64,000 bases of DNA from Vibrio syngnathi (GTDB lineage Bacteria > Pseudomonadota > Gammaproteobacteria > Enterobacterales > Vibrionaceae): positions 1,364,001-1,428,000 of the forward strand of contig NZ_CP017916.1 in assembly GCF_002119525.1 (NCBI RefSeq). The letters are read 5' to 3'. This document shows positions 4,501 through 10,103 of the stretch, piece by piece. Below the pieces are notes generated by a model that was not told where the DNA came from, did no database searches, and saw only the letters and a program-made list of their open reading frames with translations. Numbering within the stretch: position 1 is the first letter of the stretch; every line of letters starts with the position of its first letter. The position numbers and the translations under genes are program-made.

Positions 4501-5505
4501 ATGGATCCTTTAACACAGGGCGTGCTAGGCGCTTCTTTGTCACAGTCGGCAAGCAAAAAACAGCATTTAGTTGTCGCTGGTGTATTAGGGCTGCTCTCCG
4601 GGTTGGCTCCAGATTTAGATGCACTGATTAAGTCTCAAAATGACCCTTTGTTGGCTTTGGAGTTCCATCGGCAATTTACCCATTCACTCTTCTTTATCCC
4701 CATTGGCAGTTTGATCTGTGCCTTGGTTCTGCATCATCTGATTGCAAAAAGGCGCGGGCTTACTTTCAAACAAAGCTGGCTGTTTTGCGCTCTGGGTTAT
4801 GGCACTCATGCACTGTTAGACGCTTGTACCACTTATGGCACGCAGTTACTTTGGCCTTTGACTAATGCGCGTTTTGCTTGGAATACCATATCAATTATCG
4901 ATCCTGTTTATACGCTGCCCATCTTAGTTTTGCTTGTGTTTGCAACGTTGAAACGAGCACCTTGGCTAGCACGTGTCGCATTTGCTTGGGCTTTGGTTTA
5001 CCCAACATTAGGGATGATTCAGCGAGATAGGGCAGAGGCGATTGGGTGGCAATTAGCGGAACAAAGACAACATACGCCGATTCGATTAGAGGCAAAACCA
5101 AGCTTTGCGAATATCTTAGTTTGGAAAGTGGTGTACGAAACAGAGGCTCATTATCATGTAGACGCAGTGCGGGTTGGTACATCGGTAAACGTATATCCAG
5201 GAGAGTCGGTCGCTAAGCTGAACGTTAGCAGGGACTTACCTTGGCTTGACCCTGATTCGCAACAAGCCGAAGATATTGAACGCTTCCGCTGGTTCTCTAA
5301 TGGTTATATTGCTCAGGACCCAACGGACGAGTTGCGTATTATCGACGTCCGATACTCAATTGTACCGAATCAAATGAAAGCACTTTGGAGTATCAAGTTA
5401 TCAAAATCTGTTGATGCCAATTCGCATATAAAATACGAAACTCATCGAGACAACACCCCAGAGTCGAGACAGATCTTCTTCGATATGCTCACTGGCGATA
5501 AATGA
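4501..5505 (+). CDS. YdjM/DUF457-type membrane metal-dependent hydrolase
   Basis: A 334-residue protein beginning MDPLTQGVLGASLSQS, with APDLDAL (about 36-42) and FHRQFTHSLFF (about 54-64). These His/Asp motifs near membrane helices are the hallmark of the YdjM (DUF457) family of membrane-bound predicted metal-dependent hydrolases. About four hydrophobic helices fill residues 22-160; the C-terminal half is soluble and lacks membrane segments. In E. coli the family member is under LexA control; I did not find a clear LexA box here. The substrate is unknown for the family. A strong shared terminator follows. Confidence 0.82.
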   Translation: MDPLTQGVLGASLSQSASKKQHLVVAGVLGLLSGLAPDLDALIKSQNDPLLALEFHRQFTHSLFFIPIGSLICALVLHHLIAKRRGLTFKQSWLFCALGYGTHALLDACTTYGTQLLWPLTNARFAWNTISIIDPVYTLPILVLLVFATLKRAPWLARVAFAWALVYPTLGMIQRDRAEAIGWQLAEQRQHTPIRLEAKPSFANILVWKVVYETEAHYHVDAVRVGTSVNVYPGESVAKLNVSRDLPWLDPDSQQAEDIERFRWFSNGYIAQDPTDELRIIDVRYSIVPNQMKALWSIKLSKSVDANSHIKYETHRDNTPESRQIFFDMLTGDK

Positions 5506-5579: not shown

Positions 5580-7127
5580 TTATAGGTAACGCCTTCTCAA
5601 ATGGTCTTTGAAGTATTGCGCATTCAAAGTTTCACCGGTTGCACCTTTCACCAAATCATCAGTGCTCAGCAGGCTACCTTTGCTCCAAATGTTCGATTCT
5701 AACCAAGTGAAGATAGGAGATAGGTCACCGCTTTCAATCACTGAGTTCACATCAACCGTTTTCTTCATTGAAGCCATGAACTGCGCCGCGTACATCGCAC
5801 CTAGTGTGTAAGATGGGAAGTAACCAAATGCGCCATCAGTCCAATGTATGTCTTGCATACAGCCATTTTTGTAGTTGTGCGTCTTTGTAGTAGACATTTT
5901 GCCTTTGGCGTCTGTCCAGTGGATGTCTTGCATGCAGCCATTAGTGAAATTGCCTTGAGTGCCTAAGCCAAGGTATGACTGCATCTTGGTATTCCATAAC
6001 TCTGGAACGTCGGTGTGTTTGATCTTGCCGTTGATCAAGTCACGCTCAATCTCGTAGCGCAAGATAACGTGTGCAGGGTAGGTCAGTTCATCAGCATCGA
6101 CACGGATGAAGTCTTTCTTCACGCGAGTGTAGATCTTCTGGAAGTTCTCTTTCTCAAACTCTGAGCCTGAGAACTGCTGGCCAGCCAAGTTTGCTAAGTG
6201 TCCGATGAATGGATCGCTGCGGCCGACTTGCATCTCGAAGAACAAAGACTGAGATTCATGGATGCCCATAGAGCGCGCTTCACCCGCTGGTTGGCCTGCT
6301 AGGTGTTTTGGTAAGCCTTGTTCGTAACGTGCGTGCCCTGTTTCATGCACAATGCCCATTAAGCTTTGAACGAATTCCGCTTCGTCGTAGCGGGTTGTGA
6401 TGCGCACGTCTGAAGGCACGCCGCCACAGAATGGGTGAACACTTTCATCTAGTCGGCCGTGTTCAAAATCGAACTGAAGCAGCTTCATGACTTCTAAACC
6501 AAGTGCTTTCTGTTTCTCGGTCGAATAGATCCCAGATGGCGCATTAAATTGCTCGCTCGACTGTTTTTCGATGACTTCGTCAATCAGGTTTGGTAGCCAT
6601 GTCTTAACGTCGGCAAACAAGATATCAAGAGAAGCTGAGCTGGTGCCCGGTTCATAGATATCCAGCATCGCATCGTAAGGCGTTAGATTTGCTGCGTCGG
6701 CGCGGATCTGTGCTTCTTCACGAGATAGCTCAACCACTTCACGCCAGTTCTTTTCGAATCCAACCCAGTCGTTGTTACCACGTTGGCTGCGCCATGCATG
6801 TTCACATTTCGAACCCGCTAGAGATTTCGCTTCAACCAGTTTTTCTGGCAATAAGTTTGCTTGTTGCCATTGGCGTTTAATTTCACGCAGAGACGATTGT
6901 TGCTCGCCATTTAGCGCTTCGCTTTCAGCGTCTGCAATCCAATCGCCAAGCTGTGGTTGCGTCATCAACCCGTGAATATGAACCGAAAGCTCGGCCATTG
7001 CTTCACTTCGAGCTTGGTTACCACCTGCAGGCATCATTGAAGCTTGGTCCCAACCACAAATAGAGGCTAGGTGTTGAAAGCGTGAACATTTTTGAGAGTG
7101 TTCGACTAGTTTTTTGAATGCGCTCAT
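5580..7127 (-). CDS. M32 family metallocarboxypeptidase (Taq type) with internal duplication
   Basis: The 515-residue protein shows M32 hallmarks: HETGH zinc motif at about residue 259 (GIVHETGHARYEQG), third ligand region GEARSMGIHESQS, DVRITTRYDE, and HWTDGAFGYFPSYTLG near the C terminus. M32 enzymes release C-terminal amino acids in the cytoplasm using zinc or cobalt. Oddity: the element NGCMQDIHWTD occurs twice, at about residues 396-406 and 421-431, separated by AKGKMSTTKTHNYK. Without this 25-residue insert the protein would be 490 residues, close to the usual family length. The two 33-bp copies differ at five bases, all third codon positions. The gene stands alone, divergent from the LysE gene. 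Confidence 0.92.
   Translation of the reverse strand: MSAFKKLVEHSQKCSRFQHLASICGWDQASMMPAGGNQARSEAMAELSVHIHGLMTQPQLGDWIADAESEALNGEQQSSLREIKRQWQQANLLPEKLVEAKSLAGSKCEHAWRSQRGNNDWVGFEKNWREVVELSREEAQIRADAANLTPYDAMLDIYEPGTSSASLDILFADVKTWLPNLIDEVIEKQSSEQFNAPSGIYSTEKQKALGLEVMKLLQFDFEHGRLDESVHPFCGGVPSDVRITTRYDEAEFVQSLMGIVHETGHARYEQGLPKHLAGQPAGEARSMGIHESQSLFFEMQVGRSDPFIGHLANLAGQQFSGSEFEKENFQKIYTRVKKDFIRVDADELTYPAHVILRYEIERDLINGKIKHTDVPELWNTKMQSYLGLGTQGNFTNGCMQDIHWTDAKGKMSTTKTHNYKNGCMQDIHWTDGAFGYFPSYTLGAMYAAQFMASMKKTVDVNSVIESGDLSPIFTWLESNIWSKGSLLSTDDLVKGATGETLNAQYFKDHLRRRYL
5835..5942 (-). repeat. In-gene direct repeat in the M32 peptidase
   Basis: Two 33-bp copies (5835-5867 and 5910-5942), 75 bp apart, each encode NGCMQDIHWTD in the same frame. 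I count 28 of 33 identical bases; all five differences are synonymous. Confidence 0.9.
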
Positions 7128-8345: not shown

Positions 8346-9716
8346 TTATGCTTTAACTGCTTCACAGTCATTTGAAGAAGTTAACGGTTTGAAGAATAGC
8401 TTTGTTTCTTCGATAACAACGTGGCGTAACAAAATCAGTCCGATTAGGTTCGGAATTGCCATTAGGCCGTTCACGATATCCGCCATTATCCAGATCATGT
8501 CGAGCTTTAAGAATGCACCAGAGGCAACCAAGGCGATGAAGATGATCTTGTAAGGCAATACTGCTTTGGTACCCAGTAAGAACACTACACAGCGCTCACC
8601 GTAGTAGTTCCAACCTAAAATTGTTGTAAACGCAAAGAAGATTAAGCCAACAGAAACCAACATAGGGCCAAGGGTGTCAGCATTCAAACCTACAGCGAAT
8701 GCATGAGTGGTCATTGCAGCGCCAGAAAGGTCAGTCTGCCAAGCGCCCGTTAAGATAAGCGCCAGACCTGTCATCGTACAGATGATGATGGTATCGAAGA
8801 AGGTACCTGTCATAGAGACAAGCCCTTGTTTCACACATGAGTCTGTTTTAGCCGCAGCGGCTGCCATTGGTGCGCTACCTAGGCCTGATTCATTCGAGAA
8901 CACGCCACGAGCGATGCCTGATTGGATAGCAAGCATGATGCTCGCGCCAAAGAAACCACCGGTTGCGGCTGTGTTGGTAAACGCAGAAGTCACAACAAGG
9001 GTAATGGCATTCAGTAGTTGGTCTGCATTTGAAACAAGAACGCTTAAACACGCGACGACGTACATCACCGCCATCGTAGGAACGACTTTCCCTGCTACTT
9101 TAGCGATAGATTGAATACCACCAAGGGTTACAACCGCCACGAGTATCGTGAGGACAACCGCTGACATTTCACGCGGGGCGCCAAATGAAATCTGAGTTGC
9201 ATCTAAGATAGCGTTTACTTGTGGGAAGGTACCAATACCGAAGCAAGCAACACCGAGCGCGAAGACAGCGAACATTACCGCTAAGATTCGTGAGCCGACA
9301 CCGTATTGCAGGTAGTACATTGGGCCACCAACCATTTCTCCATTGCTATCGGTTCTGCGGTATTTAACGGCAAGTAGGCATTCTGCGTATTTGGTCGCCA
9401 TACCAAAGACAGCGGCAAGCCACATCCAGAATAGGGCACCAGGGCCACCAATCTTGATTGCGGTCGCTACACCAACGATGTTACCTGTACCAATAGTGGC
9501 AGAAAGCGCTGTACACAAAGCGGCGAAGCTTGATACGTCACCCGTACCGGATTTGTCTTTGCTGAACACCATTTTTAGCGCAGTTGGAAGGTGTCTAAAC
9601 TGGAGTAAGCCTAAGCGAAAAGTAAAATAGATACCTGTACCCACTAGCAGAATAAGCAGTGGTGGTCCCCAAACGAATTGGTTGATGGTTTGTAGTGTAG
9701 CTTGTAGGTGGTTCAT
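8346..9716 (-). CDS. AGCS family alanine/glycine:sodium symporter, riboswitch-controlled
   Basis: A 456-residue inner-membrane protein with AGCS motifs: ALSATIGTGNIVGVATAI (about 69-86), GPGALFWMWLAAVFGMATKYAE, GGPMYYLQYGVG and FSNESGLGSAPMAAAAAKT (about 273-291). The family imports alanine or glycine with sodium. The minus-strand AAGGGG before the ATG at 9716 is a clear ribosome-binding site. A tandem glycine riboswitch lies 140-390 bp upstream, so glycine is the most likely substrate and regulator. It belongs to the same family as the protein encoded at 11999-13540, but has a different N terminus and no signal-peptide-like start. Confidence 0.93.
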   Translation of the reverse strand: MNHLQATLQTINQFVWGPPLLILLVGTGIYFTFRLGLLQFRHLPTALKMVFSKDKSGTGDVSSFAALCTALSATIGTGNIVGVATAIKIGGPGALFWMWLAAVFGMATKYAECLLAVKYRRTDSNGEMVGGPMYYLQYGVGSRILAVMFAVFALGVACFGIGTFPQVNAILDATQISFGAPREMSAVVLTILVAVVTLGGIQSIAKVAGKVVPTMAVMYVVACLSVLVSNADQLLNAITLVVTSAFTNTAATGGFFGASIMLAIQSGIARGVFSNESGLGSAPMAAAAAKTDSCVKQGLVSMTGTFFDTIIICTMTGLALILTGAWQTDLSGAAMTTHAFAVGLNADTLGPMLVSVGLIFFAFTTILGWNYYGERCVVFLLGTKAVLPYKIIFIALVASGAFLKLDMIWIMADIVNGLMAIPNLIGLILLRHVVIEETKLFFKPLTSSNDCEAVKA

Positions 9717-9852
9717 AGATTCCCCTTAATAAATATAAAATTTAAGGAGAAGAGGGAAGGCAGTGCAGATCACAGGGATCGGGAGCACTACTTAATACAT
9801 ACGAATTTCTAGATAGAATTCTTTTGTTAATTAAGGCTGTTGCTTTCCACTC

Positions 9853-10103
9853 CTCTGTCCTTTTGCCTGAGAGTTTCACTTAGCGAATCACTTATAGATA
9901 AGTAACGGGCACTAAGCTTGCTCCTTCGGCGACCGCTTGCTACAAAAAAGTAGTACGGTTCTCTCCAGAGGTTCCTCCAACGACAGTCCTCACTTTTCTG
10001 GATTTCTCCAGCACAAAGCGCCTGAAAGATTTACTTCTTCGGCGGGTTTATCTAACTAAATGTTAATATTTAGTTAAAAACCACTCTCCTGCAGTCTTCA
10101 TCG
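9853..10103 (-). promoter_or_regulatory. Tandem glycine riboswitch
   Basis: Read on the minus strand, the leader carries two glycine aptamers. The first contains CAGGAGAGTGG, CCGAAGAAGTAAATC, TTTCAGGCG and GAGGACTG. The second contains AACCTCTGGAGAGAACC, GCCGAAGGAGCAAGCTT, then AACTCTCAGGC and AAAAGGACAGAG ending near 9853. Paired aptamers with the CCGAAG and TCTCAGG cores are the classic tandem glycine riboswitch known from V. cholerae. It precedes only the AGCS symporter gene. Whether it turns the transporter on or off cannot be decided by eye, as I see no clear terminator/antiterminator in the 130-base stretch before the gene. Confidence 0.93.

Follow-up and report, generated by a model that had tools for sequence, protein, structure and literature searches.

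A probable scar of a serine-recombinase island in the catalytic motif of an M32 carboxypeptidase gene of Vibrio syngnathi

The M32 gene and its doubled motif

The window, a stretch of 64,000 nucleotides of the Vibrio syngnathi genome (NZ_CP017916.1, positions 1,364,001 to 1,428,000), carries on its minus strand a predicted M32 carboxypeptidase gene of 515 amino acids (5580..7127), identified from the list of open reading frames and from the PF02074 profile, which matches this frame in two stretches with 536 bits against a cut-off of 25.1. Genomes, proteins and loci are designated here by G, P and L numbers, the window's genome being G000, and a C after a genome number denotes a contig or chromosome. 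The residues H261-E-T-G-H265 and G397-CMQDIH-W404 of the predicted product are invariant across 42 aligned M32 sequences, and the accessible text of PMC7918520 names the HEXXH zinc motif and GXXQDXHW as conserved motifs of M32. The second of these motifs is doubled: NGCMQDIHWTD is found at residues 396-406 (copy 1, 5910..5942, minus strand) and again at residues 421-431 (copy 2, 5835..5867, minus strand), with a spacing of 75 bp or 25 residues. The copies differ at five bases, in codons 3, 7, 8, 10 and 11, each difference being a silent third-position change, and the doubled motif (42 nt at 81%) is the sole direct-repeat family of at least 14 nt that the repeat finder returned in the gene. A sequence-only reading of the window had described this doubling with its silent differences, had noted that both copies keep the same protein motif, and had given a length near 490 residues for the protein without the insert. 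The base comparison and the repeat finder confirm the first of these points, the second agrees with the motif being a conserved one, and the third is matched by the single-motif relatives of the Splendidus type, which are 490 aa long in eight of nine cases and 492 aa in the other.

Copy 1 would represent the native host half of the target, on the left side of an attachment site, and ends in the first putative attachment core, GACAGAC (5910..5916, minus strand), formed by the last base of the W codon and the T and D codons; in the chimeric genes described below, the switch from native to element sequence follows this core. The next 23 residues (5841..5909, minus strand), composed of the linker AKGKMSTTKTHNYK and the second NGCMQDIHW, resemble the insert of genome G190 and are probably island-derived, copy 2 coming from the replacement 3′ end of an island. 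The second core, GACTGAT (5835..5841, minus strand), is intact in the window, and the breakpoint between island and native sequence probably lies at or just after it. From GGCGCATTTGG onward the sequence is of native type, and the C-terminal part of the gene (5580..5834, minus strand) is assigned as native from its identity to native genes. The downstream neighbour of M32 (4501..5505, plus strand) follows with no island between. Elsewhere in the window, an ordinary glycine riboswitch (RF00504, 65.8 bits; 9845-9978, minus strand) lies upstream of a gene at 8346-9716 (minus strand), which is a transporter by eye.

Short repeats are a typical place for an assembly or sequencing artefact, but we consider an error of this kind extremely unlikely, as did the sequence-only reading: the assembly consists of two contigs (4.89 Mb), the two copies differ at five bases, and a nearly identical linker is present in a protein of another species, P0023 of V. 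harveyi (96% identity over 45 aa). With that linker and a related one in another Vibrio (P0085), the repeat is not a chance occurrence either.

The arrangement recurs in many M32 proteins. Two copies of the motif at the same point are present in 32 of 121 proteins (120 listed homologues and that of the window), and when a second search is added, made with residues 396-440 and favouring linker-bearing proteins, 35 of 201 proteins have a second GC(M/L)QDIHW after a variable linker, in 23 linker/core combinations. In the two-motif proteins copy 1 continues the native sequence and is followed by 10-26 residues ending in H/Y-N/D-Y-R/K-N/D, after which come G-C-M/L-Q-D-I-H-W and the C-terminus. In the search with residues 396-440, the first 34 rows all have the linker and match along the full 45-aa region with E values of 5.5e-11 or better, whereas the next row covers 82% of it with an E value of 3.2e-9; the named organisms among these 34 are Vibrio or Marinomonas. 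After P0023, the linker nearest to that of the window is found in P0085 of Vibrio sp. UCD-FRSSP16_10 (87%). At the genome level, a 48-aa query spanning the linker gave some match in 218 of 227 Vibrio genomes, and in the ranked list the match is whole-length, among the matches listed, in seven: G000, G190, G113, G102, G078, G166 and G018.

Islands at the M32 gene of related genomes

In relatives that carry a large serine recombinase (LSR) at this locus, an island is inserted at codons W-T-D of the M32 gene and supplies a divergent replacement 3′ end, made up of linker, second motif and C-terminus, while the native 3′ end is displaced beyond the island. Displaced native ends are found in G018, G113, G102, G190 and Marinomonas, those of the four Vibrio genomes being placed by tblastn, of which the positions and not the identities are used. 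In G018 the chimeric M32 gene encodes 510 aa counted from its ATG; after it come Septu genes of the PtuA/PtuB type, an HATPase_c_3 gene, a gene that is transposase-like by eye, the LSR and a displaced M32 3′ fragment. Beyond this fragment lie a cargo block that contains a DUF3584 gene and another displaced fragment, and then the same neighbour gene as in the window. The order in G113 is chimeric M32 gene, cargo with BrxC and PglX, LSR and displaced fragment, over a span of about 50 kb. G190 has a DpdD/E/F/H/J cluster after the chimeric gene, with the LSR and the displaced fragment on another contig, and in G078 and G166 the LSR comes directly after the chimeric gene and a second C-terminal match is also present. 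Marinomonas repeats the layout, with a chimeric gene and an LSR (575.6 bits) adjoining the displaced fragment. The distance from the LSR start to the displaced junction is about 40-60 bp in G018, G113, G190 (on its separate contig) and Marinomonas, and about 290 bp in G102. The LSRs of G018 and G102 contain the Resolvase (PF00239) and Recombinase (PF07508) domains. Gamma-Mobile-Trio islands, considered at first, were set aside, the recombinase found being of the serine class.

The cargo includes defence genes: in the three islands scanned with PADLOC (G018, G113 and G190) Septu, BREX and Dpd genes were detected. For the block at the last displaced end of G018, Wadjet was considered from the gene order and rejected, the only match being a weak one to JetC (E value of 0.00045) in the DUF3584 protein; PADLOC gave no match to Jet genes in the three neighbours of the DUF3584 gene. 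Two species share a gene block that lies between displaced M32 fragments (L032:5817-12271 and L055:4651-10240) and encodes this DUF3584 protein with its weak match to JetC.

The junctions point to one place. In the chimeric genes, native sequence extends through CACTGGAC(N)GA, and in G018, G113 and Marinomonas the native part of the displaced fragment begins at AGAC(N)GA(Y)GG, which gives GACNGA, within codons W-T-D, as the shared core. The displaced end deviates from this core in G102 (AAAGGGATGG) and in G190 (AGGGCGATGG). Copy 1 ends in TE instead of TD in 18 of the 35 two-motif proteins, and the switch therefore lies no further along than the third base of the D codon. When the flanks are joined at the core, the reading frame up to the first stop has 490 codons in both G018 and G113; in G102, a more distant species, it has 496. 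The N-part of the gene is 93.2% and 93.6% identical to the best native in G018 and G113, respectively, and the displaced C-part 93.3% and 94.8%, which corresponds to the Splendidus type, whereas the replacement C-part reaches only 73.8% and 69.0%. For G102, comparison with the same natives does not discriminate (63.6% for the ungapped N-part, 79.4% for the displaced C-part and 73.8% for the replacement C-part).

The occurrence of the recombinase follows that of the linker. A profile was built on the recombinases of four islands (identity to the first of them, 33-41%), those of G166 and G190 not being among these; it matches 48 of the 227 Vibrio genomes at E<=1e-30, and exceeds 500 bits in only six: G018, G078, G102, G113, G166 and G190, the next genome having 240 bits. 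These are exactly the six listed genomes with a whole-length linker other than that of the window. No further genome with this LSR subfamily was found among 329 genomes of the family, the genus included (next value, 247 bits). Three genomes were reached through named linker loci, and of these Marinomonas sargassi has the LSR, while Grimontia marina (L040) and Enterovibrio (L079) have similar linkers with no LSR and a single C-terminal match, and may carry fixed chimeric alleles. The M32 gene of Enterovibrio appears to be split between two reading frames. The match between linker and recombinase suggests that the LSR performs the insertion at M32.

A query of the last 94 residues of M32 matches two or more times in 43 of the 227 genomes, and the DNA at M32 was read in 21 of these, both numbers including the window's genome. 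Displaced M32 3′ fragments with no linker-type LSR in the stretch were found at L058 (G229), L066 (G068), L055 (G096), L061 (G178) and L064 (G220), some of these loci being arrays with cargo between the fragments. The main gene of G229 and G068 has no linker. Its C-part and the displaced one share about 75-100 bases, identical or almost so, before they part; the LSR subfamily, the only one searched for, was not found in these two stretches. Since such shared tracts lie at both ends, homologous recombination fits as well, and the movement of linker-free displaced ends, as cargo, may have depended on homologous recombination or occurred in trans. One could accordingly propose, with these fragments and shared tracts in its favour, that RecA-type recombination between M32 3′ ends on circular cargo is the main inserter and that the LSR is a mere passenger. 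We think this improbable, as the LSR subfamily is present in all six listed linker genomes besides that of the window and in no other of the 227, and the switch at the ends is confined to a few bases at a single place, whereas homologous recombination would give scattered switch points.

The second match of the window's genome is a decayed relic of an M32 3′ end on chromosome 2 (L080:1192-1413, G000:C2; 49% over 74 aa, with two stops), and a similar match lies on C2 of G018. The chromosome 2 relic suggests that an element bearing an M32 tail once sat elsewhere, and other genomes among the 43 may hold similar relics.

Origin of the allele in the window

The sequence of events that we propose is as follows. 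A mobile island bearing an LSR would insert at codons W-T-D within GCMQDIHW(TD) of the M32 gene. The gene would stay open because the island contributes a divergent C-terminus, preceded by a short linker and another copy of the motif, and the host's own 3′ end would come to lie beyond the island. Subsequent recombination of the second motif copy with the native 3′ end would remove the island. The product would be the arrangement of the window, in which the native N-part and copy 1 are followed by 23 residues of island origin, the last of them forming the second motif, and then by a native C-part.

The 75-bp insert of the window has the same length as that of the LSR-bearing G190 and is 78.7% identical to it. 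Compared with the island copy of G190, copy 2 has 5 mismatches in 33 bp and copy 1 has 10, or 1 and 4, respectively, over the 24 bases that encode GCMQDIHW. Against nine natives of the Splendidus type copy 1 shows 1-7 mismatches of 33 and copy 2 shows 4-6, the native L007 being nearer to copy 2 (5 mismatches) than to copy 1 (7). Over its 33 bp, copy 1 also shows no difference from copy 1 of G113, a genome that carries an island. Because copy 1 is native-like and copy 2 island-like, the silent differences would separate two homologous sequences joined by recombination. The sequence-only reading had instead proposed a tandem duplication of the gene's own motif in situ, kept by selection on the protein. 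In its favour, the two 11-residue copies are the same in protein and differ only silently, and L007 is nearer to copy 2, but we find this origin highly improbable: the linker and copy 2 correspond to sequence carried by an island in another species, linkers of differing length and sequence stand at the same point in many proteins, and the other linker-bearing genomes of the genus have the LSR, with the displaced 3′ end adjoining in G018, G113, G102 and G190. As to conservation of the insert, which that reading had wished to see examined among relatives, close relatives with no island have a single motif, and the same kind of insert occurs elsewhere together with recombinase-bearing islands. 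Its interpretation as a whole is partly supported.

From GGCGCATTTGG onward the gene of the window is native, with 93.3% identity to the nearest native, 67.9% to the island of G190 and 61-75% to the island copies compared. The DNA 3′ of the M32 stop aligns over 353-400 bp at 86-89% with three of eight single-motif relatives (L007, L008 and L062), and it also aligns with the flank beyond the islands of G096 (84%) and G113 (79%). In the other five relatives (L003-L006 and L063) the downstream alignment with the window is at most 34 bp; the downstream side of M32 is therefore variable, and the end of the gene may be a wider hotspot. The profile search gave no LSR match at E<=1e-30 in the window's genome. 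A linker and a second motif at the core are thus followed by a native C-part and native downstream DNA, as in a scar, and the features of an intact island are missing, the LSR being absent from the genome and the native C-part being in place and not displaced. With native sequence on this side and no recombinase, the island would be gone, leaving 23 island-coded residues. On these comparisons, the locus is very probably the scar of a departed LSR island that had been inserted in the catalytic motif of M32.

No island with exactly the linker of the window was seen as DNA, the insert of G190 being the nearest. The parent island may differ from the islands seen whole, because an intact second T-D is present only in the protein of the window, in P0023 and in a decayed relic of G131. 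This relic (L076:3600-3900, minus strand, G131:C46) has a linker of the window's type (KGKMSTTKSHNYRNGCPQDIHWTDG) and keeps TD, and lies on a contig other than that of the M32 gene of G131. We infer that an island was once present in the window's own lineage; its loss may have come about through homologous recombination, through action of the recombinase on the second core, which is intact, or in a donor strain. The last case leads to another explanation, in which the allele was already scarred when it arrived, through transformation and homologous recombination, from a strain whose island was gone. The near-identical linker and intact second core of P0023 fit such an arrival, as does the G131 relic with the same linker type and an intact core, but the N-part of the window gene (92.7%) and its C-part (93.3%) are closest to natives of its own clade, and an imported tract would therefore be short or come from close kin. 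We regard this arrival as possible, although unlikely.

Linker-bearing alleles and comparison with known systems

The second motif copy is usually recoded at the core. After the second HW, the 35 two-motif proteins read CD (13), CT (12), TQ (7), TD (2) or SG (1), so that T-D is altered in 33 of them, the intact cases being the window's protein and P0023, whereas the single-motif proteins read TD in 164 cases and AD in one (one motif-less protein of the 201 is omitted from these counts). Fisher's test gives p of about 3e-34 for this contrast, with related proteins counted as independent. The alteration perhaps protects from the island's own recombinase; alternatively, the proteins may descend from a small number of ancestors that already had the change. 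More distant natives also read other residues here, so that M32 can accommodate the altered residues. We tentatively put forward, at somewhat less than even chances, a family of defence islands that cuts a catalytic motif, restores the enzyme with a recoded copy that its recombinase cannot recut, and leaves a peptide tag after its loss. If this were true, the peptide tags would preserve, at the protein level, a fossil record of where islands had once been, and the enzyme may itself be altered by its lengthening.

The replacement ends move horizontally between species, as judged from identities along the proteins. The C-part (84 residues) is 100% identical in P0030 of V. cholerae, P0047 of V. 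harveyi and P0058 of V. vulnificus, with an N-part identity of 86.7% between P0047 and P0058, and the N-part of P0030 is 99.5% identical to that of another V. cholerae protein, P0097. A C-part identity of at least 95% at an N-part identity below 90% was found in 8 of 156 linker pairs, against 0 of 1999 native pairs. These numbers come from 340 of 496 linker pairs and 2148 of 3828 native pairs, which are not independent, pairs with an ungapped N-part identity of 50% or less (small-gap misalignment) having been excluded. The effect rests on few pairs, because the mean difference between C-part and N-part identity is nearly equal in the linker and native sets (−1.6 and −1.8).

Linker-bearing alleles head large protein clusters, P0063 of V. 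parahaemolyticus with 1509 members and P0030 of V. cholerae with 811, these being clusters at 90% identity in which linker-free members may be included. The M32 locus would be a case of a mobile element entering the conserved motif of an enzyme while the gene stays unbroken. It suggests that gain and loss of islands may be read from the peptidase sequence alone, and it offers a serine recombinase with a putative target that can be tested directly.

The M32 islands belong with the site-specific islands that restore the gene they enter. SCC elements insert near the end of rlmH by means of Ccr serine recombinases, and only the last bases of rlmH are replaced. They share with the M32 islands the large serine recombinase, a conserved housekeeping target, tandem composite islands and a gene that is kept intact; in contrast, the M32 islands replace more than 80 codons and lengthen the enzyme by 20-36 residues, and the target gene and the host are different. 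Prophages e14 and 21 enter icd with a phage-type integrase and supply a replacement 3′ end for the entered gene, as the M32 islands do, and we know of no second target motif or lengthening in icd. Tyrosine-recombinase islands of Vibrio of the VPI-6 type are likewise defence-bearing and have attL and attR sites, but their recombinase is of another class, according to the accessible text of PMC6360697.

The use of M32 as an integration site for defence-bearing Vibrio islands was not met in the literature searched, many subscription papers being outside its scope; in the accessible main text of PMC1464126, PMC6360697, PMC2491623 and PMC2890568 the terms "carboxypeptidase" and "M32" are absent. 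The closest precedent found is the recA mobile element (RME) of Vibrio cholerae S24, which, in the accessible part of its description, has a complete second recA, a phage integrase and 9-bp inverted repeats (PMC4405046). As far as this part of the source extends, the RME resembles the M32 islands in being a Vibrio island at a specific site inside a housekeeping gene, which it replaces with a divergent version, whereas the M32 islands replace only the 3′ part of their gene, carry an LSR, and add a linker and a second target motif to the protein.
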